Below are positions 2,716-15,617 of a stretch of 16,626 nucleotides of DNA, piece after piece. Origin of the DNA: Acidimicrobiales bacterium (GTDB taxonomy: Bacteria > Actinomycetota > Acidimicrobiia > Acidimicrobiales > Palsa-688); assembly GCA_030039575.1 (NCBI GenBank), contig JASHVH010000241.1:1-16626 (forward strand), in the 5' to 3' direction. The position numbers and the translations under genes are program-made. Each line of letters starts with the position of its first letter. The first letter of the stretch is position 1. The notes under the pieces were generated by a model, which was given only the letters and a program-made list of their open reading frames with translations, ran no database searches and had not been told where the DNA came from.

Positions 2716-3915
2716 CTAGGACAGGCCACGTACCTGCACAGGCACGTCGGAGCTGCCCGTTCCCCCGTCACCCAGTTGGCCGTAGGTGCCGTAACCCCAC
2801 GCCCACACCGTGCCATTGGACTGGAGGGCGTAGGCGGCGTTCCCTCCGGCAGCGATGGATACGACGTGCCGAAGCCCGTTTACGCGCACGGGTATATCCG
2901 AGCTGTCGGTGTTGCCGTCGCCCAACTGGCCGTAGCCGCCATACCCCCACGCCCATACGGACCCGTCAGCGGCGAGGGCGTAGGCGGCGTAGGTCCCGGC
3001 GGCGATGGCGAGCACTTGGGGAACGCGTCCTACGGGCTCTGGGCGAGACGAGCCGGCGCAATTGGTCGGGTGGCGTATTGGGCAGGTCCCGGTCCCGAGG
3101 TCTCCGAACGAGCCGTCCCCCCACGCCCGGACGGTACCGTTCTGCAGCAAGGCAAAGCCGGCATCGGCACCGGCAGCCACAGCCGTTACGCCCCGGAGGC
3201 CCTGAATTTCGACGGGGACCTCGCTCCCGATCAGGCCCTTTTGCCGGGCCAGCTCGCCGAAGGCGTTGTCGCCCCAGGCCCACACCGTCCCATCTGCGCG
3301 CAGGGCGTACGCGGTGCCGGCGCCGGCGGCGAGTGCCCGCACTGCGTTGAGCCCGATGACTTTTACCGGGAGATCACTGGTAGCCACCGACAACTTCTCG
3401 CCCAACTGCCCGACACCGTTCGAGCCCCAAGCCCAGACCGTCCCCCGCCGCGTCACGGCGTACGCCGCGAATTCTCCCGCCGCGATTTGTTTCACCCCGC
3501 GCAGCCCTTTGACCCGAACGGGGACCTCACTGGTGAACGTCTCCTTCCCGTTACCAAGCTCGCCTTCGCCGTCGTCGCCCCAGGCCCACACGGTCCCGTC
3601 GCCTCGCAGGGCAAACGCGCTGTTGGACCCGGCGGCCACGGCCACCGCGTCAGACAATTGGAGGGCCCGCACGGGGGCATCCGTCGCGGTGCCATCGCTG
3701 CCGTTACCGAGCTGGCCTTCGAGGTCGTCGCCCCAGCCCCAGACGCTCCCGTCACTCGACAGGGCGTAGGCCGAGTAACCACCGCCGGCCAGTTGACTCA
3801 CCCTCCCTGCGGCGACGGCATGAGCAAGCGGGGAGGCCTCAATGGCCGTACTTGGGACGTAAACGGCCGCCAGCCAGGCCAACACGGTCACGGCGGCCAC
3901 CGGCCCCGCCGCCAT
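2716..3915 (-). CDS. Exported RCC1-repeat beta-propeller protein
   Basis: The 399-aa protein starts with a signal-peptide-like hydrophobic segment (residues about 5-25). Seven tandem RCC1 repeats of roughly 50 residues follow. Each carries the pattern AAG..xAYAL..DG(T/S)VWAWG....GxLG.G. Seven repeats are what a complete seven-bladed RCC1 propeller needs. RCC1 domains are protein- or ligand-binding scaffolds; no catalytic function can be assigned. I use the ATG at 3915, which has GGGGG eight bases upstream; a GTG at 3924 is in frame but lies within an inverted repeat. The gene follows the sugar ABC ATPase by about 47 bp and precedes phnG by 66 bp on the same strand, so it may be co-transcribed with either. 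I infer that it is secreted or surface-located. Confidence 0.85.
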   Translation of the reverse strand: MAAGPVAAVTVLAWLAAVYVPSTAIEASPLAHAVAAGRVSQLAGGGYSAYALSSDGSVWGWGDDLEGQLGNGSDGTATDAPVRALQLSDAVAVAAGSNSAFALRGDGTVWAWGDDGEGELGNGKETFTSEVPVRVKGLRGVKQIAAGEFAAYAVTRRGTVWAWGSNGVGQLGEKLSVATSDLPVKVIGLNAVRALAAGAGTAYALRADGTVWAWGDNAFGELARQKGLIGSEVPVEIQGLRGVTAVAAGADAGFALLQNGTVRAWGDGSFGDLGTGTCPIRHPTNCAGSSRPEPVGRVPQVLAIAAGTYAAYALAADGSVWAWGYGGYGQLGDGNTDSSDIPVRVNGLRHVVSIAAGGNAAYALQSNGTVWAWGYGTYGQLGDGGTGSSDVPVQVRGLS

Positions 3916-4802: not shown

Positions 4803-5848
4803 AATTTCACCCTCCGGCCGAAGCGGCTCATAGCCATGCGGTGGAGCTGGACGTTGGCGATCATGGCCACCAGGATGGCGATGCCGAGGACGAGCTGGAA
4901 CGTGTAGGCGCTGACGCCGGTGATGTTCAGGCCGTCATAAAGGAAGGCCAGGACGATGGCGCCGAGGGCGCCTCCCACTACCGTGCCCCGTCCGCCGGAC
5001 AGGGCAGTCCCACCGATAACCGCGGCGGAGATGCCGTAGAACATGATGAGGGTCCCGTCGTTGCCTGGGTCAAGCGTGGTGATCCGCACGCCGTCGATGA
5101 CCCCGATCATCGCCGCGAGCGCCGCCGCCAACATGAAACACCAAATCTTCACCCGCCTCGTGGGCACGCCGGCCTCGGCGGCACCGAGGAGGTTCCCTCC
5201 GGTGGCCGTGATGTGGTTGCCGAAACGCATCCTGTGCAGGATCAGGTAGAGCACCAGGACGGCCCCTCCGGCCCACAAGATCTCGGCCCACGACCAGTTC
5301 CCGAGGATATTGCCCCCGGTGCCGTTCACGGTCATCGTCTCCTGGGTCCCGTTGGAAAGAAGGAGCATGGCGCCGTCAAGCGCGAACAACGTGCCGAGGG
5401 TGGTCACGAAGGAGGGCACGCTGAACAGCGTGGTGATCAACCCGTTGATGAGCCCGAAAATGGCCGCCCCGACTATGCCCACCGCCATGGCCAGACCGAT
5501 AGGGAACCCGTGGCCGGTCCACAGGAAGTAAACGATGAAGGGAAAGGCGATGAACACCGTCCCGAGAGACAGGTCGACCTCGCCGGAAGTGAGCAGCAAG
5601 ACCTCCGCACACCCGATGACGGCGATAGGGGCAAGGAACTGCGTCATCGTGACGAAGTTGGCGTAGGAGATGAAGGCCGGCGACTTGATGGCGAAATAAA
5701 TGAAAAGGAGCACTGCCACGAGGAAGATCGCCGCCTCGCGGCGTTCGATGAGTTGCCGGAGCCGTTGGCTGCCCGGCCCCGCCGTTCTCGGCGGGGCCGG
5801 GGAGACGCCAACGGACGCTTCCGGTACCTGAAGCGTCGGGCTGCTCAT
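4799..5848 (-). CDS. Sugar ABC transporter permease (RbsC/FrcC family)
   Basis: Inner-membrane permease of the same CUT2 transporter, 349 aa. It shows the family marks: several hydrophobic spans starting with AAIFLVAVLLFIYFAI near residue 40, the EVDLSLG motif (family GxxDLSVG), an ATGGN loop, and a C-terminal AAVIGGTALSGGRGTVVGGALGA segment that contacts the ATPase. The N-terminal 35 residues are polar, cytoplasmic and Pro-rich. The start at 5848 has GGAGG upstream at a long spacing of about 14 bases; no better in-frame start is visible. It lies 48 bp after the binding-protein gene and overlaps the ATPase gene by four bases. Confidence 0.95.
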   Translation of the reverse strand: MSSPTLQVPEASVGVSPAPPRTAGPGSQRLRQLIERREAAIFLVAVLLFIYFAIKSPAFISYANFVTMTQFLAPIAVIGCAEVLLLTSGEVDLSLGTVFIAFPFIVYFLWTGHGFPIGLAMAVGIVGAAIFGLINGLITTLFSVPSFVTTLGTLFALDGAMLLLSNGTQETMTVNGTGGNILGNWSWAEILWAGGAVLVLYLILHRMRFGNHITATGGNLLGAAEAGVPTRRVKIWCFMLAAALAAMIGVIDGVRITTLDPGNDGTLIMFYGISAAVIGGTALSGGRGTVVGGALGAIVLAFLYDGLNITGVSAYTFQLVLGIAILVAMIANVQLHRMAMSRFGRRVKL

Positions 5849-5896: not shown

Positions 5897-7069
5897 TTAT
5901 GACAAACCGGCGTCAGCCTTGAGGATCGTGGTGGTCGGCTTCGGCAGGACCTTTTGGGCGGTCGTGCTGCCCTCGACCCGGGACGGCGTGGCCAGGTAAG
6001 GATCGACGTTGTCCTTGGTGATGAAGTACAGGCCGGTGTCCGTGTCGGACGGGCGCATCAGCCCGCCGGTGATCGTGAACAGGAACAGGTACATCACCGG
6101 GAGGAAGCCCTGCAGGTAGGCCTGCTGGTCGATCGAGAAGGCGAGTGCTCCGGACTTCACAGCTTGCAGTTCCGGCACCGCGATGTCCCATCCGGACCCG
6201 AAGACCTTGCCCGCCAGACCGTGCTTGGTGATGGTCGTGGCCACCGCCTCCCCGGTCCCGTCGTCTACGGCGTACATGAACTTCACGTCTTTGTGACCGA
6301 GGTAGTACGCCTCGACCGCGGTGGACTCCTCGCTCAGCAGGGCTCCCGTGCCCTGCTCCACGAAATCGATCCCGGCCGGCTTCAATATCGACGAAGCCCC
6401 ATCGATACGGGGCTGGATGTTCAAGGAGCCGGGCGTAGCGATGAGCCCGGCCACCAAGTCGCCCTTGGTCACGAACGGCAGGATGCGCTGCCCGGCCTCG
6501 ACACCCGCCTGGAACAGGTCCTGGCCGATGTAGCAGAGCTGGTGGTTCTCTGAGGCCGTCGACGATGGCGGGTTGGCGTTGTAGGCCAGCACGGGGATGC
6601 CGGCGTCGAGGGCCGCGTTGGTCGGCTTGACAAACGCGGTCGGGTCGATGACCGGGACCGAAATACCGTTGACGCCGGCGGCCGTCGCCGTGTCCATAGC
6701 GGTCACCATCTGGGCCACGTCTGAGGTGGCCGACCCCGTCCATTGGTACTTGGTCCCGAACAGGGCGCAGGCGTCAGCGGCACCGTACTGAGTGGGGACG
6801 AAGAACGGGTTGGTCGTTACGTGGTTGACGAAGTTGAACGTATAAGTCGGGTGCGCCGCGAAGACGGCGCCTTGGGCCAATATGTCGTTCCTCTTCGTCA
6901 GGTTCTGCCTGTCCCGGACGCTGGCGTCGGCCGGTACCTCGGAAAGTGTTTCGACGAGGCCACCGAGCAGCGGGATGCTGACCGCAGCCGCACTGGCGTT
7001 GCGGAGGAACCGTCGGCGCGTGACCTCCCATTTGCGGGGGTCTTGTTCGCCTAGGTCAAATTTGGGCAT
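5897..7069 (-). CDS. Tat-exported sugar-binding protein of the ABC transporter
   Basis: Periplasmic-binding-protein-like domain (Peripla_BP_4 type, as in RbsB) of 390 aa, the ligand-capture subunit for the adjacent permease and ATPase. The N-terminus carries a twin-arginine motif, TRRRFLR at residues 17-23, followed by a short hydrophobic stretch and an Ala-X-Ala-like site near residue 48. No lipobox cysteine is visible, which is unusual for an actinobacterial binding protein because most are Sec lipoproteins. The central GISVPVIDPTAFVKPTNAALD region and the FGSGWDIAVPELQAVK region are typical of the family. Start ATG at 7069 with AAAGGA seven bases upstream. It is the first gene of the transporter set. 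Confidence 0.93.
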   Translation of the reverse strand: MPKFDLGEQDPRKWEVTRRRFLRNASAAAVSIPLLGGLVETLSEVPADASVRDRQNLTKRNDILAQGAVFAAHPTYTFNFVNHVTTNPFFVPTQYGAADACALFGTKYQWTGSATSDVAQMVTAMDTATAAGVNGISVPVIDPTAFVKPTNAALDAGIPVLAYNANPPSSTASENHQLCYIGQDLFQAGVEAGQRILPFVTKGDLVAGLIATPGSLNIQPRIDGASSILKPAGIDFVEQGTGALLSEESTAVEAYYLGHKDVKFMYAVDDGTGEAVATTITKHGLAGKVFGSGWDIAVPELQAVKSGALAFSIDQQAYLQGFLPVMYLFLFTITGGLMRPSDTDTGLYFITKDNVDPYLATPSRVEGSTTAQKVLPKPTTTILKADAGLS

Positions 7070-7526: not shown

Positions 7527-8528
7527 TCAAGGCCCCGAAAGTTTCGGCGTCATGGACACGAGTGCCCTGTCTCCTGTCTGCAGCGACTTGACACAGGCCT
7601 CTGCCACCGCCGTAGCCGCGTACCCGTCAAACGCGCCCGGGCCGGTGACGATGCCCTGCCGGACGCCTTTGACCCATTCTTGTAGCTCATCGCGGTAGGC
7701 CTGGCCGAAGCGCCCTTTCCAGTCGAGGGGTACTGGTGCGCTCCTGTTGCCCGCAGTCGTGAGCACCCCGGTTGATGGAAGGTCGAGCGAAGCCGTCCCG
7801 ACGGAGCCGACGACCTCGCAGCGGACCTCGTAGCCGTACTGGCAGTTGACGAAAATTTCGATCTCCACCACCGCGCCCGAGGCCGCCTCGAGCAGCACCA
7901 ACTGTGGGTCAAGAAGGCTGTCGGGCGCCAGCGGGCTCTTCCTCCCCACGACCACCCTGGCCGCCACCAGTTCGTCAGAAAGCAACCAGCGGGCGACGTC
8001 GATCTCGTGGATCACCGAGTCGGTGAGAAGCATTTCGCTCCGGAAGAAGGGCGGGGATTGAGCATTGCGATGGACGCAATGGGCCAGCAAGACGTCGCCC
8101 ACGCTGCCGTCGTCGATGGCCCGCTTCACGCGCTGGAAACCCTCGTCGTACCGGCGCATGAAGCCGACCTGGACGAGCCGGGCGCCGGCGGCCGATTCAG
8201 CCTCCACGACCTGCACGCACTCCTCGGAGGTTGGCGCCAGCGGCTTTTCGCACAACACCGGCCTGCGAGCCTCAATGCAAGCGATGGTCAGCTCAGCGTG
8301 CACCGGGGACGGAGCGGCAATCAGGACGGCTTCAACCTCACCGTCGTCAATGAGGTCCTGGGCGGTTTTATGGGCTACCGCCCCCACCTCGGCGGCCAGC
8401 GCGGCGGCCCTGTCCGCATCGACGTCGAACACAGCCTGTACTCGAGCACCGGCTATTTCGGCGGACAAACGCCGGACGTGCTCGGCGCCGATGTCACCGG
8501 TGCCGATAACCCCGACATTCAGCTCCAC
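7527..8528 (-). CDS. Inositol 2-dehydrogenase-like Gfo/Idh/MocA oxidoreductase
   Basis: NAD(P)-dependent dehydrogenase of the IolG type, which oxidises myo-inositol to scyllo-inosose or a related sugar alcohol to its ketone. The GTG start at 8528 has GGAGAGG seven bases upstream and gives 333 aa, the normal family size. The frame stays open upstream to 8882, but that part lies inside the IolE-like gene. Features: Rossmann motif GVIGTGDIG at residues 6-14, EKPLA at 94-98 with catalytic Lys95, GFMRRYD near 122-128 as in IolG, and D170-x3-H174 in DSVIHEIDVARW. Lys95/Asp170/His174 fit the IolG catalytic triad. It follows the IolE-like gene by 32 bp on the same strand. True substrate unknown. Confidence 0.9.
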   Translation of the reverse strand: MELNVGVIGTGDIGAEHVRRLSAEIAGARVQAVFDVDADRAAALAAEVGAVAHKTAQDLIDDGEVEAVLIAAPSPVHAELTIACIEARRPVLCEKPLAPTSEECVQVVEAESAAGARLVQVGFMRRYDEGFQRVKRAIDDGSVGDVLLAHCVHRNAQSPPFFRSEMLLTDSVIHEIDVARWLLSDELVAARVVVGRKSPLAPDSLLDPQLVLLEAASGAVVEIEIFVNCQYGYEVRCEVVGSVGTASLDLPSTGVLTTAGNRSAPVPLDWKGRFGQAYRDELQEWVKGVRQGIVTGPGAFDGYAATAVAEACVKSLQTGDRALVSMTPKLSGP

Positions 8529-8560
8529 TACGTTCCCTCTCCAGTAATGGGCCTCATTAA

Positions 8561-9493
8561 TTACCCGGTTACCCCGATCGACCCGTAGTAATTGGACGTC
8601 CGGCGGGCGATAGGCAGCGGGACGTCCGGGTCGCACGGGTACAAGTCCTGTTCGACTATGGCAAAAAGGTCGGCACCGAGCCGGCCCAGAGCCTCGATAA
8701 CCGGCGCCATGTCGGGGATACCACCCGGAGGTTCGCACATAACCCGGAGGCGCACCGCTTCGGCGAAACCGAGGTCGTCGGCCCGCACCTGGTCGAGCAC
8801 GGCGGGGTCTACCTGCTTGAGGTGGACGTACTTGACCCTGTCGGGGAACTGCTGGATTATTGCCAGGTTGTCGCCCCCGCAATAAGAAATGTGGCCGGTG
8901 TCAAGGCACAATGACACCGTTGACGGGTCGGTCTCCTGCAGGAAGCGGTCCACCTCGTCCCCGGTACCGACGTGGGTGTCGGCGTGAGGATGGAACACCA
9001 GCGTCACCCCGTAGTCGCCCGAGACGATCCTGCCCATCTCCGACGCCTGCCGGGTCAGGCAGTTCCAGTCGTCATTATCAAGCCTGCGCTTATCAGTGAA
9101 ATTGCCGTCCAGGTCCCGGTACGACTGCGGCAGGTATATCAAGTAGCGGGCGCCCACAGCGTGGACGAGGCCGGCCACCTGGCGCGCTTCGGCGACGTCA
9201 TGCTCCCAGGTCGTCCTCTTGTGCAGCGCCCCGACGACCCCTCCCCCCGTCACCTTGAGGCCCCGCCGGCCAACCTCGTCGGCAAGGCGGGCCGGGTCGG
9301 TCGGTAGGTAGCCATGCGGCCCGAGCTCCAGCCATTTGTACCCGGCCGCCGCCAGTTCGTCGAGGAACCGCTCCCAGTGAACCTGCTTCGGGTCGTCGGG
9401 AAACCACACCCCCCACGAGTCGGGGCAACTACCAAGGTGCAGCCGCGTCGCAGCAGTGCCGGGCCTGCCGTCTGACGGTGCGGCCAGTGTCAT
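8561..9493 (-). CDS. IolE-like TIM-barrel protein (inosose dehydratase / sugar isomerase-epimerase family)
   Basis: AP-endonuclease-2-type TIM barrel of 310 aa. The N-terminus LGSCPDSWGVWFPDDP and the segment LELGPHGYLPTDPARLADE are typical of the IolE-like group in actinobacteria. Likely metal- and substrate-binding residues are His168/His170/His174 in the FHPHADTHVG motif, Asp198 and His201 in CLDTGHISY, His224 in KYVHLK and Glu281 in IVEQD. IolE removes water from scyllo-inosose, the product of IolG, so the adjacent IolG-like gene supports an inositol-type role. Other members are ketose isomerases or epimerases, so the reaction is not certain. It is the first gene of the minus block and divergent from iclR. 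Confidence 0.87.
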   Translation of the reverse strand: MTLAAPSDGRPGTAATRLHLGSCPDSWGVWFPDDPKQVHWERFLDELAAAGYKWLELGPHGYLPTDPARLADEVGRRGLKVTGGGVVGALHKRTTWEHDVAEARQVAGLVHAVGARYLIYLPQSYRDLDGNFTDKRRLDNDDWNCLTRQASEMGRIVSGDYGVTLVFHPHADTHVGTGDEVDRFLQETDPSTVSLCLDTGHISYCGGDNLAIIQQFPDRVKYVHLKQVDPAVLDQVRADDLGFAEAVRLRVMCEPPGGIPDMAPVIEALGRLGADLFAIVEQDLYPCDPDVPLPIARRTSNYYGSIGVTG

Positions 9494-9603
9494 CGGTACT
9501 CCCCTCGGTCTGAACCGTTGCCCTGACTGTCCATATCGGCTCGGAACACCCTATACCTCCCGGGACGCGTGCCCGCTTACAGGGCCACTGGGGACGTCAT
9601 GCG

Positions 9604-9632
9604 TTGACATTACGCCTGCCGGCCATTTTTAC
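9604..9632 (+). promoter_or_regulatory. Possible housekeeping promoter toward iclR
   Basis: A perfect -35 hexamer TTGACA at 9604-9609 is followed after 17 bases by TTTTAC at 9627-9632, a modest -10. It would give a leader of about 230 bases before iclR. Confidence 0.3.
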
Positions 9633-9655
9633 GCGGTGACATCGCGATTTGTAAA
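9626..9655 (-). promoter_or_regulatory. Possible promoter toward the IolE-like gene
   Basis: On the minus strand TTTACA (9655-9650) and TAAAAA (9631-9626) stand 18 bases apart, a plausible -35/-10 pair. It overlaps the candidate plus-strand promoter, so the two would compete. The predicted leader to the IolE-like start is about 125 bases. Confidence 0.3.
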
Positions 9656-9807
9656 AACATCCGCTGGCACGGACCAACCCATTTAGGGAATAACCACTGG
9701 ACCGAGGTTTAGACCGAGCTGGTTAGTCGACAAAGGTTGGCTTTGCGTCTGCGCGGCCCGTCCCCCCGACAGACCGCATCGCTGGCGCCGAAACGGTGTT
9801 ATTACAT

Positions 9808-9834
9808 TGTGGACGCTCTATGTACCATGTGGAC
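9808..9834. promoter_or_regulatory. TGTGGAC direct repeats upstream of iclR
   Basis: TGTGGAC occurs at 9808-9814 and 9828-9834, exactly 20 bp apart, so both copies face the same side of the helix. The second continues as TGGACA, the half-site seen in the palindrome at 7465-7492. The position 35-60 bp before the iclR start suits autoregulation. Confidence 0.35.
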
Positions 9835-9868
9835 ACTAGCCCGCCCGGCCCGTTAGGATCCAGGAGGG

Positions 9869-10633
9869 ATGGATAGCCCCCGGGTGAAAGTCCTGGGCAA
9901 AGTAGCGAGGCTGCTGAAGCTCTTGGCCGACCACCCGGGTTCGACCGTGCCGGCACTGGCGGTGCTTCTCGGGGAGCCCAGGCCGACCGTGTACAGGCTC
10001 ATCCAGGACCTGACCCTGTTCGACTATGTGGAGGAGGGGCCGCGTCCCGGTACGTACCGCCTCGGCCTGGAACTGTTCCGCCTGGGGTCGCTGGTCGCCC
10101 TGCGCTTCGACGCCCGCGAAGCGGCCGCCCCGGTAATGAACGAGATCCACAAAGCCCTCGAAGAGACGGTGTACCTGGTTATCCGGCGCGAACACGAAGC
10201 GGTCTGCATCGAGAGGGTGGAAGGGTTACGCATCCTTTCCATGGCTTTGCAGCTGGGCGGTTCGCTCCCCCTGCACCTCGGCGCCGGCCCCCGCGTGCTA
10301 CTGGCTTACCAACCCCGCCAGTACTGGGACGAGTACTTTGCCAAGGTGAAGCTCGAGCCGCTCACGCCCCGCACACCGACGACCAAGGCCGGGAACATCG
10401 CTCTCCTCGAGGAGGCCAGGCACCTCGGGTACGCCATCAGCGACGAGGACGTGACCGTCGGGATCAGCTCCGTGGGGGCACCGATCTTCGACCACACCGG
10501 GCAGGTCCACGCGGCCATCTCGGTCGGCGGCCTTCGCGCTGCCGTGATGGGCGACGGAGGCGGCGAGCGGGCCGTGCAGCTCGTCACCGAAGGAGCGGCT
10601 GAGATCTCCCGGAAGATGGGGTACTTACCATGA
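9869..10633 (+). CDS. IclR-family transcriptional regulator
   Basis: 254 aa, the usual IclR length. The N-terminal winged helix-turn-helix spans about residues 8-70, with the HTH at 27-48 (VPALAVLLGEPRPTVYRLIQDL). The C-terminal effector domain contains the family block VGISSVGAPIFDHTGQVHAAISVGG. Such proteins bind a small catabolite and control nearby uptake and degradation genes. Here the natural targets are the adjacent transaldolase and the divergent IolE/IolG/ABC genes. Only one base separates AGGAGG from the ATG at 9869; that spacing is too short, so an upstream TTAGGA or a different start may be used. The gene ends in an ATGA overlap with the frame of the transaldolase gene. Confidence 0.95.
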   Translation: MDSPRVKVLGKVARLLKLLADHPGSTVPALAVLLGEPRPTVYRLIQDLTLFDYVEEGPRPGTYRLGLELFRLGSLVALRFDAREAAAPVMNEIHKALEETVYLVIRREHEAVCIERVEGLRILSMALQLGGSLPLHLGAGPRVLLAYQPRQYWDEYFAKVKLEPLTPRTPTTKAGNIALLEEARHLGYAISDEDVTVGISSVGAPIFDHTGQVHAAISVGGLRAAVMGDGGGERAVQLVTEGAAEISRKMGYLP

Positions 10634-10686
10634 GCGACGGTGCTGGCGCCGGGGTCACAGTAGCCCCGGCGGGAGAGGAGACAACG

Positions 10687-11796
10687 ATGGCCTTAGGCGC
10701 CAAGCAGAGCCAGTTCAAGAGCCCCTTGTACGAGATGACGCAGACCACGCCGACGTGCTTGTGGAACGACTCGGCGTCAGAGGCCGAGCTGATGTACGCC
10801 ATCGATAACGGCGCGGTGGGGGCCACGTGCAACCCGGTCATCGCCTTGACCGTGGTGCGACAGGAGATCTCCCGGTGGATGCCTCGGCTCCAGCAGCTGG
10901 TCCGCGACAACCCGGCTGCCACCGAAGACGACGTCGGGTGGCGGCTCGTCGAAGAAGTGTCGAAAAACGCCGCCGGTTTGCTCGTCCCTATTTTTGAACA
11001 GGCCAAAGGCCGTAATGGACGATTGTCCATCCAGACCGACCCTCGGTACTACCGCGACACGAGAGCGATCCTGGCCCAGGCCGTCCATTTCAACGACCTG
11101 GCGCAGAACATGATCGTGAAGATACCGGCCACGGCCGCCGGGGTACCGGCCATAGAAGAGGCCACTTACGCAGGCATCAGTATCAACGCGACGGTGAGTT
11201 TCACCCTCTCTCAGGCGCTCTTGGTGGCCGAGGCGGTGGAGAGAGGCCTGCGCCGGCGAGAGGCGGAAGGCAAGGACATCTTGTCCATGGGCCCGGTCTG
11301 CACGCTGATGGTCGGACGGCTGGACGACTGGCTCAAAGTCGTGATGGACAAGGAGGGGATCCTCACCGACCCCGGGCACCTCGAGTGGGCCGGCGTGGCC
11401 GTGTTCAAGAAGGCGTACCAAATCTTCACCGAACGCGGTTACCGCACCCGGCTGCTGTCGGCGGCATTCCGTAACCATTTCCACTGGAGCGAGCTGATCG
11501 GCGGCGACGTGGTCATATCACCACCCCACGCCTGGCAGGTGCGCATCAACGCCAGCGACATCCCCGTCGAGCCCCGGATCGACCGCCCGGTCAGCCCGGT
11601 GATCGTCGACGACTTGGTCAGGCGCTTCCCGGAGTTCCGCAAGGCTTACGACGAGGACGGTTTGTCCGTGGACGATATCGACTCGTACGGCCCGACCCTG
11701 CGCACTCTGCGCCAGTTCATCAGTGCCTCCGCCGACCTAGCCAGCCTGGTGCGTGACGTGATGACTCCGGACCCAGATCTGCGCCGGCACAGTTGA
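10687..11796 (+). CDS. Transaldolase-family protein
   Basis: TAL/FSA-family class I aldolase. These enzymes form a Schiff base with a ketose phosphate and transfer or release a dihydroxyacetone unit. The start I chose (369 aa) has GGAGAGGAG six bases upstream. An in-frame ATG at 10630 overlaps the iclR stop and would add 19 Gly/Ala-rich residues. Numbered from 10687, the GATCNPVIAL segment lies near residues 45-54, the IQTDPR strand near 115-120, the predicted Schiff-base lysine is Lys145 in MIVKIPAT, and SINATVSFTLSQA and GPVCTLMVGRLDDW follow. It is longer than E. coli TalB (about 317 aa). Beside IclR, inositol-type enzymes and a sugar importer, it probably acts in substrate breakdown rather than in the pentose phosphate pathway. 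Confidence 0.9.
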   Translation: MALGAKQSQFKSPLYEMTQTTPTCLWNDSASEAELMYAIDNGAVGATCNPVIALTVVRQEISRWMPRLQQLVRDNPAATEDDVGWRLVEEVSKNAAGLLVPIFEQAKGRNGRLSIQTDPRYYRDTRAILAQAVHFNDLAQNMIVKIPATAAGVPAIEEATYAGISINATVSFTLSQALLVAEAVERGLRRREAEGKDILSMGPVCTLMVGRLDDWLKVVMDKEGILTDPGHLEWAGVAVFKKAYQIFTERGYRTRLLSAAFRNHFHWSELIGGDVVISPPHAWQVRINASDIPVEPRIDRPVSPVIVDDLVRRFPEFRKAYDEDGLSVDDIDSYGPTLRTLRQFISASADLASLVRDVMTPDPDLRRHS

Positions 11797-12085: not shown

Positions 12086-12751
12086 TCACACCTTGGCCGT
12101 GTCGAGCACCTGGCCCTCGAAGGTGACCACCTGAACGGCAGCCACGTCATCGCGCGGCACCAGGGCGGAGCCGCTGACCCGCTCGCCCCCGGCCGGGGAC
12201 TTGTACGGCGCCAGCCAGCTCCCGGCGACCACGCGGCGCCCAGACTTGTCGACCACCATCAGGTAGCAACGGGCGTGGCCAGGGACACCGGTGAAGGCGC
12301 CCTCGAGCCGTACCCACCCGCTGGCAGGGGTGATGACCACGGTCATGTGGACGCCGCTGGCCGGGTTGCTGGCCGCCACCCGGGTGCTGCCGGCGGGGAC
12401 AGCCAGAGGGGCGGGGCCGCTCGAAGAGTTGAGCCCGATGAGCAGGCCCCCCGCCAGCGCGACCAGGACCAACAGGACGGCGGCGGCCACCGACCAGACG
12501 GGCGGCCGGCGGCGTTCGGCCCCGGCCTGGCGGACCGTGCGGGCCAGGAGTAGGTCGGCTCCCTCAGGCGGCCCGTCGAGAAAGGCTTCGGGTGGGACCT
12601 GTGCGAGCAGGGAGCGGAGGGACTCGAGCTCGTGGAGCTCCTCACGGCAGCCAGGGCAACCGGCGAGGTGCTCGCTTACCTGGCGCTGCTCGTCGGCGTC
12701 GAGCGCTGCGAGAGTGTACGGCCCGAGGAGGTCGTTAGGGTGCTCGCTCAT
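12086..12751 (-). CDS. Membrane anti-sigma factor with zinc-finger N-terminus (RskA-like)
   Basis: The 221-aa protein starts at the ATG at 12751, which overlaps the sigma-factor stop as TAATG. The N-terminal zinc-binding anti-sigma domain has His28-x3-Cys32-x2-Cys35 (the HxxxCxxC pattern). One transmembrane helix spans about residues 86-107. An extracytoplasmic domain of about 110 residues resembles the RskA C-terminal type, with GWVRLEGAFTGVP, ARCYLMVVDKSGR and VAGSWLAPY stretches. Known relatives hold the sigma factor at the membrane until proteolysis or a redox signal frees it. The frame stays open upstream to 13090, but that part lies inside the sigma gene. It is translationally coupled to the sigma factor. 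Confidence 0.92.
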   Translation of the reverse strand: MSEHPNDLLGPYTLAALDADEQRQVSEHLAGCPGCREELHELESLRSLLAQVPPEAFLDGPPEGADLLLARTVRQAGAERRRPPVWSVAAAVLLVLVALAGGLLIGLNSSSGPAPLAVPAGSTRVAASNPASGVHMTVVITPASGWVRLEGAFTGVPGHARCYLMVVDKSGRRVVAGSWLAPYKSPAGGERVSGSALVPRDDVAAVQVVTFEGQVLDTAKV

Positions 12752-13305
12752 TACGCCGACTCCTTTTCGTCCGGCTCGCTCGGGGCCATGATGCCACGGA
12801 GGGTCTGTAGCCCGTAATAAGCCCTCGACTTGACCGTACCCGGCGGGACACTGAGGCGCTGGGCAGCCTCCGCCACGCTGCTCCCCCGCCAATACAGCTC
12901 CACCAGGACGTTGCGGTGCTCCGGTGACAGCTGGTCGATGGCCCCTAGGATGGCGACGCTGTCGACCACGTCCTCCGGCTTGTCGGGGGCGACGCTCGGG
13001 TTGGTGGGGTGCTCGCGGACCTCCGCCGGCCGGGCCGAACGGGCCCTGGCCCGGTCGACGACTATGTTGCGGGCCACCGTGAGCAACCATCCCCGCACCG
13101 AGCCCTGGCCGTTGACCAGTACCTCGGGGTGCTTCCAGGCCCGCAATAACGTTTCCTGGACGACGTCTTCGGCCTCGGTGCGGTCGTTCGTCAAGCGGGT
13201 GACGTAAGCGAGAAGGCTACGACCGTGCTCGTAGTACAGCGCGGTGATGAGCGCCTCTGGGCCACCCGTGTCACCGCGCTTGCCTCGGCGGGCTCGTAAG
13301 CTCAA
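12751..13305 (-). CDS. ECF sigma factor (SigK/SigL-like)
   Basis: RNA polymerase sigma-70 factor of the extracytoplasmic-function class. From the TTG at 13305 it is 184 aa, the typical size. Region 2 covers about 22-88, with AEDVVQETLLRAW and GWLLTVARNIVVDRAR. Region 4 covers about 116-172, with LSPEHRNVLVELYWRGSSVAEAAQRL and the PPGTVKSRAYYGLQTLR recognition helix. I prefer this start because GGGAGGGAG lies just upstream and region 2 begins about 20 residues later. ATG at 13470 and TTG at 13536 are also in frame but add residues unlike the family, and the 13536 start would overlap the predicted promoter. It overlaps its anti-sigma gene and is probably autoregulated. Confidence 0.9.
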   Translation of the reverse strand: MSLRARRGKRGDTGGPEALITALYYEHGRSLLAYVTRLTNDRTEAEDVVQETLLRAWKHPEVLVNGQGSVRGWLLTVARNIVVDRARARSARPAEVREHPTNPSVAPDKPEDVVDSVAILGAIDQLSPEHRNVLVELYWRGSSVAEAAQRLSVPPGTVKSRAYYGLQTLRGIMAPSEPDEKESA

Positions 13306-13507
13306 ACGCTCCCTCCCGTGCCCGGGCGATTTCTTCTCCCCTCTGCGTAGCAGATCCGTGACTACGGTCGCGCGATTAAGGCCTCCGTCGGCGGGCTGGG
13401 CCGGCAGTCGCTCGAGATGGGCGGCTGACCGGCGCCAGGCAGCTAGTTCAGTGGTCACGGTCATGGTCATGGGGTGGTGGAACCTCTTGGGAACGCTCGT
13501 GCCTATG

Positions 13508-13535
13508 TACACGTGCCATAGGCCGCCACGGTTCA
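13508..13535 (-). promoter_or_regulatory. ECF-type promoter of the sigma/anti-sigma genes
   Basis: On the minus strand TGAACC (13535-13530), a 16-base spacer and CGTGTA (13513-13508) match the plus-strand element at 13724-13751. The general form, a GAAC-type -35 and CGT-type -10 with 16-17 bases between, is that of ECF promoters. The implied start of transcription is near 13500. Confidence 0.6.
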
Positions 13536-13723
13536 ACGCCAGGGGTTTCTTAGGTTGTCTTCAGAGCTGCGGCCGCGGTCCGTCGCCTTGTGCCTTGAAC
13601 AGTGGGCGGGCGCACTGCGACCGGGTGGCGCCATCTCTCGTGCACCAAGGTTGTCCGGCTGCGATTTTTTTTGGCCTATTTGCTGGGCTTTTTTCCGTTG
13701 GGCCGAATTTTTTCTGATCCCGT

Positions 13724-13751
13724 TGAACCGCAACCGGCCCGGCCACGTGTC
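13724..13751 (+). promoter_or_regulatory. ECF-type promoter of the DUF3455 gene
   Basis: TTGAACC with TGAACC at 13724-13729, exactly 16 bases, then CGTGTC at 13746-13751. This shares both boxes and spacing with the element before the sigma gene, while the spacers differ. The predicted transcript would start near 13758, with a leader of about 80 bases. Confidence 0.6.
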
Positions 13752-13838
13752 ATTGGCTCGTGGCACTTAGCCACAGCGCCCACGAAGCACCTGCGGCGCA
13801 AACCCACCCCAAACCACCCCACCCCAAAGGAGACAACG

Positions 13839-14387
13839 ATGTCCCGCAAATGGCTCATCGCCGCCGCCCTGGCAACGGCCGGCGCGATTGCCCCTACCGC
13901 TACCGCCTTGGCCGCCACCGATGGCAGCCCGGCCTTCGTGGCCGCCCCCGGCCAGGCCGGGGTCCCGTCCGCCCTGCGGGTCCCGGCCGGCAACCACCTC
14001 GTGGTCAGCTTGCACGTGATCCAGGGCGTGCAGGTCTACAGCTGCACCAACGGTGCCTGGACCTTCACCGAGCCCGACGCCGACATGGGCGTCAGCAACC
14101 GTCCCATCGTGCTGTACACGGCCGGGCCCGAGTGGGTCTCAACCGTCGACGGCAGCGCCGTGTGGGGCATGCCCCTGGCCAGTGCCAACCGCACCGGCAC
14201 CATCCCCGAACTGCTGGTAAAGGCGGTGAAGAACCGGGGCCAAGGGCTCTTCGGTTCGGTTGACTACATCCAGCGCCTCGACACCTTCGGTGGCCTGGCC
14301 CCCTCCGGCAGCTGCACCAGCGGCGCCATCACGGCCTCGCAGTACTTCGCCACCGAGGACTTCTGGGCCCCGGGCGCCGCCGCCTAG
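13839..14387 (+). CDS. Secreted DUF3455 protein
   Basis: 182 aa. The start ATG at 13839 has AAGGAG six bases upstream; the frame stays open further up to 13602 but that part looks non-coding. A Sec signal peptide covers residues 1-25, with an Ala-Leu-Ala cleavage site. The mature protein has the DUF3455 pattern: PAGNHLVVSLHVIQGVQVYSC, a TAGPEWVSTVDGSAVWG region, a hydrophobic IPELLVKAV helix, and VDYIQRLDTFGGLAPSGSC. Two cysteines in these blocks could form a disulfide. Function is unknown. Codons end in C or G almost throughout, stronger than in neighbouring catabolic genes, which suggests high expression. It lies directly behind an ECF-type promoter. Confidence 0.88.
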   Translation: MSRKWLIAAALATAGAIAPTATALAATDGSPAFVAAPGQAGVPSALRVPAGNHLVVSLHVIQGVQVYSCTNGAWTFTEPDADMGVSNRPIVLYTAGPEWVSTVDGSAVWGMPLASANRTGTIPELLVKAVKNRGQGLFGSVDYIQRLDTFGGLAPSGSCTSGAITASQYFATEDFWAPGAAA

Positions 14388-14564: not shown

Positions 14565-15617
14565 ATGAAACTCCTCTCCTCCCTCCCCGCCCGGGGCAGC
14601 TTCGCCGCCCGGGCCCTTGGCACCCTGGCCCTGGCCACAGCCACGGCGGCGGGCGCCATCGCCGCCTCGGCCGGCCCGGTGCACGCCCAGGGCACCCCCG
14701 GCTACACCTACACCACCCTGGACAACAGCAACGACCTCACCTTCAACCAGCTGCTCGGCATCAACAACTCGGGCGTCATCGCCGGCTACTTCGGCTCGGG
14801 CATGGCCGACCACCCCAACAAGGGCTACCAATTGCTGCCCCCCGGCTACGGGCAGGCCGGCTACCGGGTGGAGAACTTCCCCGGCTCGGCCCAGACCCAG
14901 GTCACCGGGCTCAACGACGGCACCGCCCAGGTCGGCTTCCAGTCCCCCACCGACACCGGCACGGACGCCAACTACGGCTGGTACACGACTGACAACGGGG
15001 CCAGCTTCACCCAGGTGGACGTGCCCCTGCCCTCCGGCTTCAGCCCCGCCAGCCCGGCCGTGACCCAGCTGCTCGGCATCAACGACAACAACACCGCCGT
15101 CGGCTTCGAGAACGACTCGGACGGCAACGCCCACGGCTTTACCTACGACCTGCGCACCAATAAGGCCACGTTCACCACCATCGCCGGGGCCAGCTCGGTC
15201 ACCGACGCCGCCATCAACAACAACGGCCAGGTGGCCGGCTTCTTCACCCCGGCCACGGGCCCGGTGGCGTCGTTCCTGGCCACCCCGGGGGGCCTGGAGA
15301 CCTTCGCCTTCAAGGGCGCCACCTCGACCGAGGCCCTCGGGGTCAACGACCACGACGAGGTGGTCGGGGTGTACACCACGGGCTCGGGCGCTAACACCCA
15401 GAACTTCGGCTTCACGTGGACCAAGCAGGCCGGCTTCACCACCATCGACGACCCCAACGGCATGGGCATGACCACCGTCAACGGCGTCAACGACAACGGT
15501 GACCTGGTCGGCTTCTACGTCGACGGCAACGGCTTCACCGACGGCATGCTGGTCACCCCCAACCCGGTCCAGGTCTCCACCCCTGGCTCGAACACGGTGA
15601 CCGCCACGGTCAGTTAG
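14565..15617 (+). CDS. Secreted HAF-repeat beta-propeller-like protein
   Basis: 350 aa with a long Sec signal peptide of about 41 residues, ending at an Ala-His-Ala site. The mature part has six repeats of the HAF type, each with a core such as LLGINNSGVIAGYF, LGINDNNTAVGFE or VNGVNDNGDLVGFY, plus aromatic blocks such as HGFTYD and FGFTWT. The spacing is about 45-60 residues. HAF proteins are extracellular and of unknown function. There is no sorting motif, membrane anchor or PEP-CTERM at the end, so it is probably released. Start ATG at 14565 follows AAAGG. Codon use is strongly C-ending, like the DUF3455 gene upstream, and both may share one transcript. Confidence 0.85.
   Translation: MKLLSSLPARGSFAARALGTLALATATAAGAIAASAGPVHAQGTPGYTYTTLDNSNDLTFNQLLGINNSGVIAGYFGSGMADHPNKGYQLLPPGYGQAGYRVENFPGSAQTQVTGLNDGTAQVGFQSPTDTGTDANYGWYTTDNGASFTQVDVPLPSGFSPASPAVTQLLGINDNNTAVGFENDSDGNAHGFTYDLRTNKATFTTIAGASSVTDAAINNNGQVAGFFTPATGPVASFLATPGGLETFAFKGATSTEALGVNDHDEVVGVYTTGSGANTQNFGFTWTKQAGFTTIDDPNGMGMTTVNGVNDNGDLVGFYVDGNGFTDGMLVTPNPVQVSTPGSNTVTATVS

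Follow-up and report, generated by a model that had tools for sequence, protein, structure and literature searches.

The −35 element of promoters read by Mycobacterium tuberculosis SigL has the consensus TGAACC. According to the passages of PMC6372665 on promoter contacts, the SigL −10 element consists of C-G followed by T-G-N-C/A-A-G, with Asp60 of SigL setting the preference at −11 and His54 that at −12. The anti-σ paired with SigL, RslA, is redox-sensitive and carries an HxxxCxxC motif; specifically, oxidation leads to a disulphide within CxxC and to loss of zinc, as described in the passages of PMC2877774 on this protein.

Here, we analysed a 16,626-nt stretch of DNA from an Acidimicrobiales bacterium, hereinafter designated the window. 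The intergenic region 13471-13838 separates a minus-strand gene for a σ-L-like ECF σ factor (12751-13470) from a divergent plus-strand gene for a DUF3455 protein (13839-14387), and very likely holds a divergent promoter pair through which this σ factor would drive both its own operon and the DUF3455 gene. Specifically, TGAACC-N16-CGTGT occurs twice with zero mismatches and a 16-nt spacer each time, and a search of the window with spacers of N14-18 returned no third match. The candidate promoter of the σ/anti-σ operon is on the minus strand at 13509-13535 (−35 TGAACC at 13530-13535, N16, −10 CGTGT at 13509-13513), 38 nt from the σ ATG at 13470, and transcription of the operon would start near 13502. 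The candidate promoter of the DUF3455 gene is on the plus strand at 13724-13750 (−35 TGAACC at 13724-13729, N16, −10 CGTGT at 13746-13750), 88 nt from the DUF3455 ATG at 13839. The initial annotation had described two copies with identical spacing but different spacers, and both points hold, the spacer letters being GTGGCGGCCTATGGCA in one site and GCAACCGGCCCGGCCA in the other. Chance predicts a mean of 0.03 matches to TGAACC-N14-18-CGTGT per window, and none of 200 dinucleotide shuffles reached two. The window −10, CGTGT followed by C or A, agrees with the σ-L −10 given in the promoter passages of PMC6372665.

The window σ factor contains Sigma70 region 2 and region 4 (Sigma70_r2 and Sigma70_r4) and lacks region 3, and is thus an ECF (group 4) factor. 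Its start codon is likely the one at 13470, although conservation is poor over the first ~65 residues. Among all solved structures its best match is M. tuberculosis SigL (2.7e-35), to which it is closer than to other solved ECF factors, and it narrowly exceeds the NCBIfam PRK09645 cut-off (203.6 against 202). SigK is matched at only 5e-13, and an ECF19/SigK identity was rejected on this comparison. A quick tree built from 87 rows places the window factor in a fully supported set of nine, where it is joined by factors from Amycolatopsis, Kutzneria, Kribbella, Streptomyces, Actinokineospora and Pseudonocardia, while SigL clusters with Mycobacterium rows, apart from this set. The window factor therefore lies outside the clade of SigL (σ-L proper) and, judged by its separate and fully supported place in the tree, is σ-L-like and not SigL itself. 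The top match to the window σ among 13 loci of the same order (L070) is 51% identical over 159 residues, and a Kribbella factor is 68% identical over 161 residues; this difference hints at transfer of the module, the order having been searched with the anti-σ protein and not with the σ factor.

The adjacent gene (12086-12751, minus strand) encodes a putative membrane anti-σ with a zf-HC2 domain match. Reading of the sequence shows that its start codon overlaps the σ stop codon in TAATG, indicating that σ and anti-σ form one operon. The zinc motif is H28-x3-C32-x2-C35, and one apparent hydrophobic membrane segment is visible by eye, so that the protein resembles ZAS anti-σ factors of the RslA kind in both motif and segment. 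Among solved structures, RslA is matched at 4.4e-5, and the following matches are unrelated (>0.07).

The DUF3455 gene, assigned by domain match, has an AAAGGAG ribosome site upstream, and the N terminus of its product looks by eye like a signal peptide. The model of the protein is confident and all-beta (pLDDT 87.8), but no PDB match was found at E 0.001 or better, so the fold gives no function for DUF3455. Three T-rich tracts at 13660-13720 lie directly 5′ of the DUF3455 promoter and are possibly an UP-like element. Downstream on the plus strand is a gene for a secreted-looking repeat protein (14565-15617), which has no Pfam match and scores just under the cut-off of the NCBIfam HAF repeat (21.8 against 22.65). 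No separate TGAACC-N16-CGTGT site serves this gene within the window; it probably belongs to the same regulon. A paralogue in the same genome (G000:C253), with 46% identity across 285 residues, carries an exact copy of the motif 105 nt 5′ of its start, and an A/T tract is also found 5′ of that site. The motif is absent upstream of a further paralogue in the same genome (C307) and of the full-length homologues in genomes G012 (two) and G018 (one); this comparison covered full-length homologues, and further matches, weaker and partial, are present in G001 and G079. The adjoining cluster at 7527-11796 encodes a GFO/IDH/MocA oxidoreductase, a xylose-isomerase-like protein, an IclR regulator and a transaldolase family protein, looking like genes for sugar or polyol breakdown.

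The genome to which the window belongs is a MAG of 3.83 Mb in 565 contigs and is just 68% complete, so the regulon size reported here is a lower bound. Exact TGAACC-N16-CGTGT occurs at six sites in this genome, and TGAACC-N15-17-CGTGT at nine, against three for the reversed control pattern. With up to one mismatch, there are 60 sites against 45 for the control, which is almost no excess and leaves the exact form alone informative in this genome. Gene calling was crude, putting the window sites inside spurious frames, and own-genome sites were read by hand. Five of the six exact sites (the two of the window, that on C253 and a pair on C178) were read as correctly oriented and 5′ of a gene, although for one the case is weak (~300 nt to the nearest called start), while the sixth (C312) is antisense within a gene. 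The initial annotation would have been contradicted by a motif that is common and away from genes; the exact motif is rare in this genome and mostly upstream of genes. A second divergent pair of exact sites is present on contig C178 (L010) at 3400-3491. One of its sites is 5′ of a gene that the contig end truncates and whose product looks secreted, and the other is ~300 nt 5′ of an apparently broken hydrolase/cyclase-like frame, the leftward gene looking frameshifted. No σ match was found on this short contig. The two spacers of the C178 pair resemble each other and include small inverted repeats.

Sites of lesser quality add little. Among the 24 loci examined of 54 one-mismatch sites, just L023 and L034 were called intergenic, neither with a called target gene. 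Three N17 sites were not counted: one on C52 is by eye within a groEL-like gene, one on C145 is inside a gene, and one at G000:C488:8097-8124 overlaps the starts of divergent regulator-like and transporter-like genes. Also not counted was TGAACC-N16-CGT at L254, a Lipoprotein_15 locus of the own genome, where it is ~650 nt 5′ of the open frame and continues with CG and not GT. None of the six Lipoprotein_15 genes of the own genome has a site close upstream.

A similar element is found upstream of related σ genes. Using the window σ factor we found 387 loci, and the best 80, all from named actinobacteria, were scanned over 700 nt 5′ of the σ match and 60 nt into it. TGAAC-N17-CGT is present in 49 of these best 80 of 387 loci, which are not 49 independent cases because the 80 include numerous close relatives within Streptomyces, with near-identical rows in the quick tree. 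A scan of spacings from 10 to 25 in the same best 80 loci gave 49 at 17 and 0-11 at every other spacing. For 500 shuffled words the mean is 0.46 of these loci, and the top single word reaches 18. The element is absent within 700 nt in 31 of the 80 loci and within 1100 nt in 28. On the opposite strand the same spacing occurs in ten loci, four of which also have the forward element. A small second peak, with 11 of the 80 loci, is seen at spacing 13, four bases below the main one.

Within the clade of the window factor, L084, L085, L086, L087 and L091 have TGAACC-N16-CGTGT facing the σ operon, L088 has CGTAT as the second part, L089 has CGAACC-N16-CGTGT, and L090 has CGTCC in the forward and CGTGT in the divergent direction. 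At the level of the order, the anti-σ was matched in 83 of 148 genomes, and 13 loci were picked from the best of these matches. The element is present in nine of the 13, eight of them by script (facing the σ gene within 1000 nt, spacing 17 or 18) and one by hand (L072, minus strand at 6251), where the site overlaps the beginning of the tblastn match and so escaped the script. The four order-level loci in which no element was found include one that offered just 82 nt of upstream sequence, and most of the weaker anti-σ matches (L049-L069) are also without it. The conservation in relatives that the initial annotation had asked about is thus found at both levels, and its proposal that the ECF factor recognizes the motif and drives itself gains support from the same loci. 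In a Mycobacterium MAG (L133), a divergent TGAACC-N16-CGTGT pair (8710 plus and 8684 minus) lies away from the σ gene of that locus.

Of the SigL residues that contact the promoter, His54 and Trp68 are kept in the window factor, and Asp60 is replaced by Asn; its own promoter has TGAACC-N16-CGT with G at −11. Across the 59 rows with an element, the −11 base is G in six of seven rows with Asn at the position of SigL Asp60 and A in 17 of 19 rows with Arg, while rows with Asp divide into three with G and three with A. The A/G state requires at least eight changes on the quick tree. This pattern is suggestive of a −11 base that follows the residue reading it, though not proof of it, since all seven Asn rows fall within the window's clade and represent largely one event.

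DUF3455 is rare in the order, being found in two of 148 genomes, one of which is the window's own. Among relatives it is found in 20 of 50 genomes (50 of the 80 loci), with 22 genes including that of Streptomyces orinoci. The strict element TGAACC-N16/17-CGT is 5′ of five of these 22 genes (four of 21 without L230, whose upstream region, 600 nt before the domain in a very long frame, was set by hand after the site had been seen), and 1000 shuffled words gave a mean of 0.09 and a maximum of 2. The five are the DUF3455 genes of Amycolatopsis eburnea (L230, exact CGTGT), Amycolatopsis thailandensis (L231, N17 and CGTGT) and Lentzea alba (L233, CGTTT), and two Nonomuraea genes (L234 and L236, CGTAC). 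Just S. orinoci among the 22 DUF3455 loci has a σ relative within ~1.5 kb, so the five element-bearing genes are unlinked copies; among the five genomes, A. thailandensis alone is known here to have a σ gene of the window's clade. The strict element is absent at the other 17 of the 22 genes, many of them from Streptomyces, and at the DUF3455 genes of six further loci of the phylum (L183-L188), one of which (L183) has TGAACG-N17-CGT near the 5′ end of the gene. Given these counts, DUF3455 is, by its upstream sequences, a recurrent but not universal target.

The S. orinoci locus (L104) has the same layout as the window, with the DUF3455 gene divergent from the σ gene; the N-terminal half of its DUF3455 protein looks CHRD-like by eye. 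The strict element is absent on this divergon. After the pattern was relaxed, TGAGCG-N16-CGTA was found 5′ of both genes (4828 plus and 4752 minus), and 26 of 20,000 shuffles of the region hold such a variant pair. The suggestion that the ECF factor drives secreted proteins therefore stands for DUF3455, with its counterparts in other genera; for the repeat protein, which lacks a site of its own and has a C253 paralogue with one, it is inferred. No literature tying DUF3455 to σ factors was found among the titles and abstract openings surveyed, and its role as a recurrent σ target appears new.

Another protein family takes the place of DUF3455 in related loci. Three of the 13 order-level loci (L070, L072 and L077) have a divergent promoter pair facing a gene for Lipoprotein_15 (PF03640), which in L072 is the second divergent gene, after a small membrane protein. 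A Lipoprotein_15 gene is present in the analysed stretch of 20 of 93 loci (21 genes). TGAAC-N17-CGT is close upstream of 14 of these 21 genes, a count to be read with the fact that the profile was built from seven of the 21 proteins, most first met via the motif; outside those seven it is found at eight of 14. The L071 Lipoprotein_15 gene has the element with a spacer one longer. In the metagenome protein P0070, Lipoprotein_15 and DUF3455 are joined in one chain. In a literature search for σ factors together with PF03640 or COG4315, none of the papers listed contained either term, which is no proof of absence.

Six near-relative genomes (L084-L088 and L091) together contain 74 exact sites, against five for the reversed control. 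Nine of 30 sites examined in relatives are intergenic by crude gene calling, and ten targets were picked from the 30 with preference for clear genes, so that they represent types of target and not proportions. Those passing the Pfam cut-off are Lipoprotein_15, three Rieske proteins, a ferric-reductase-like protein, a zinc peptidase, a subtilase, an HSP70-like protein and a mannosyltransferase, while a sulfatase match is below the cut-off. The three Rieske proteins have starts that look by eye like export signals. The motif precedes Rieske and ferric-reductase-like genes in L206, L215, L218 and L217, and a Rieske gene is in the divergent cluster of L090. This suggests a redox theme among the motif-bearing genes of relatives. 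It is possible, though we hold it only tentatively, that the window's clade of σ-L-like factors operates an extracytoplasmic programme of redox reactions or electron transfer that is conserved in Actinobacteria. DUF3455 and Lipoprotein_15 (Yx[FWY]xxD) proteins would then be alternative secreted components, fused in some cases, that accompany secreted Rieske and ferric-reductase-like proteins, and DUF3455 would act outside the cell in redox reactions or in the handling of metals.

The sites, their spacing, orientation and conservation, the factor family and the zinc motif are features of the sequence itself, and other readings of them deserve consideration. GAAC-containing −35 elements are common to many ECF groups, and at least one further stretch of the own genome (C113) matches σ and anti-σ. 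Both window sites might thus be promoters of another ECF factor of this genome with overlapping specificity, the neighbouring σ being a mere target, and in four of the five genomes with a strict-element DUF3455 gene the σ relative that was found is indeed outside the window's clade. We regard this as improbable, because the element travels with the σ family (49 of the 80 loci), changes with it in S. orinoci, where TGAGCG is on both promoters, and has a −11 base that tends to follow the residue reading it.

It is still less probable that the σ promoter alone is functional, with the DUF3455 site having arisen by chance or being left over from duplication of the intergenic region. Two exact matches are very unlikely by chance (0.03 expected), and a duplication is at odds with the differing spacers. 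The scarcity of DUF3455 in the order and the 17 genes elsewhere without a strict element would fit this reading, but the five element-bearing genes in other genera and the matched variant pair on the S. orinoci divergon argue for a functional site. A bipartite motif repeated in an intergenic region could also be a pair of binding sites for a conventional regulator; with a fixed spacing, each copy polarized toward its gene, a fit to the σ-L −10 and the element upstream of the σ family itself, this reading is scarcely credible.

If 13471-13838 holds divergent promoters of the σ-L-like factor, a simple circuit can be proposed. The zinc-binding HxxxCxxC domain of the membrane anti-σ would hold σ in check. 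Once a surface signal, which by analogy with RslA is probably oxidative, had disarmed the anti-σ, σ would be released to bind −35 TGAACC and −10 CGTGT, 16 nt apart. The freed σ would transcribe its own operon, providing both positive feedback and renewed inhibitor, and, divergently, the gene of the secreted DUF3455 protein, possibly with the repeat protein gene downstream. A small unlinked set would also be transcribed, namely the genes for the repeat-protein paralogue on C253 and for the secreted-looking protein on C178. Actual transcription, the signal and the role of the secreted proteins are what we infer from this arrangement. The initial annotation anticipated that the locus would give the motif of a σ factor; the motif was found, but because the factor is of σ-L type it is not new for such factors, and motif and autoregulation are both of an already known kind.

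Pfam assigns no function to DUF3455. A promoter tie to a redox-type σ/anti-σ pair provides a testable condition for its role and a first working context for the family, and in relatives the tie extends to genes of the Lipoprotein_15, Rieske and ferric-reductase kinds. Naturally occurring variation, with TGAGCG in S. orinoci and either G or A at −11, provides a comparative set for the co-change of ECF factors and promoters.

Compared with SigK/RskA (ECF19), the window pair shares the general plan of an ECF factor with an anti-σ, although SigK is a far weaker match than SigL to the window σ. MPT70 and MPT83 are secreted proteins. SigK controls both of them, according to the passages of PMC7509140 on this system. 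RskA is independent of a zinc motif in the account given in the relevant passage of PMC7406223, whereas the window anti-σ has one. The likeness to M. tuberculosis σ-L/RslA is closer: both have an ECF factor with a zinc-motif membrane anti-σ, and both have a −10 of CGTG type (promoter passages of PMC6372665). The Mycobacterium locus L149, the tree row nearest to M. tuberculosis SigL, has TGAACC-N16-CGTGTC at 5039, estimated to be just 5′ of the conserved σ domain. SigL itself differs in its place outside the window factor's nine-row set and in its targets, reported to include pks7/pks10 and Rv1138c-Rv1139c; the passages of PMC13002591 on these targets do not mention DUF3455. The σ-L-like/Lipoprotein_15 divergons resemble the window in their divergent layout, with a promoter on both sides, and differ in the partner, which is Lipoprotein_15 there and DUF3455 in the window.
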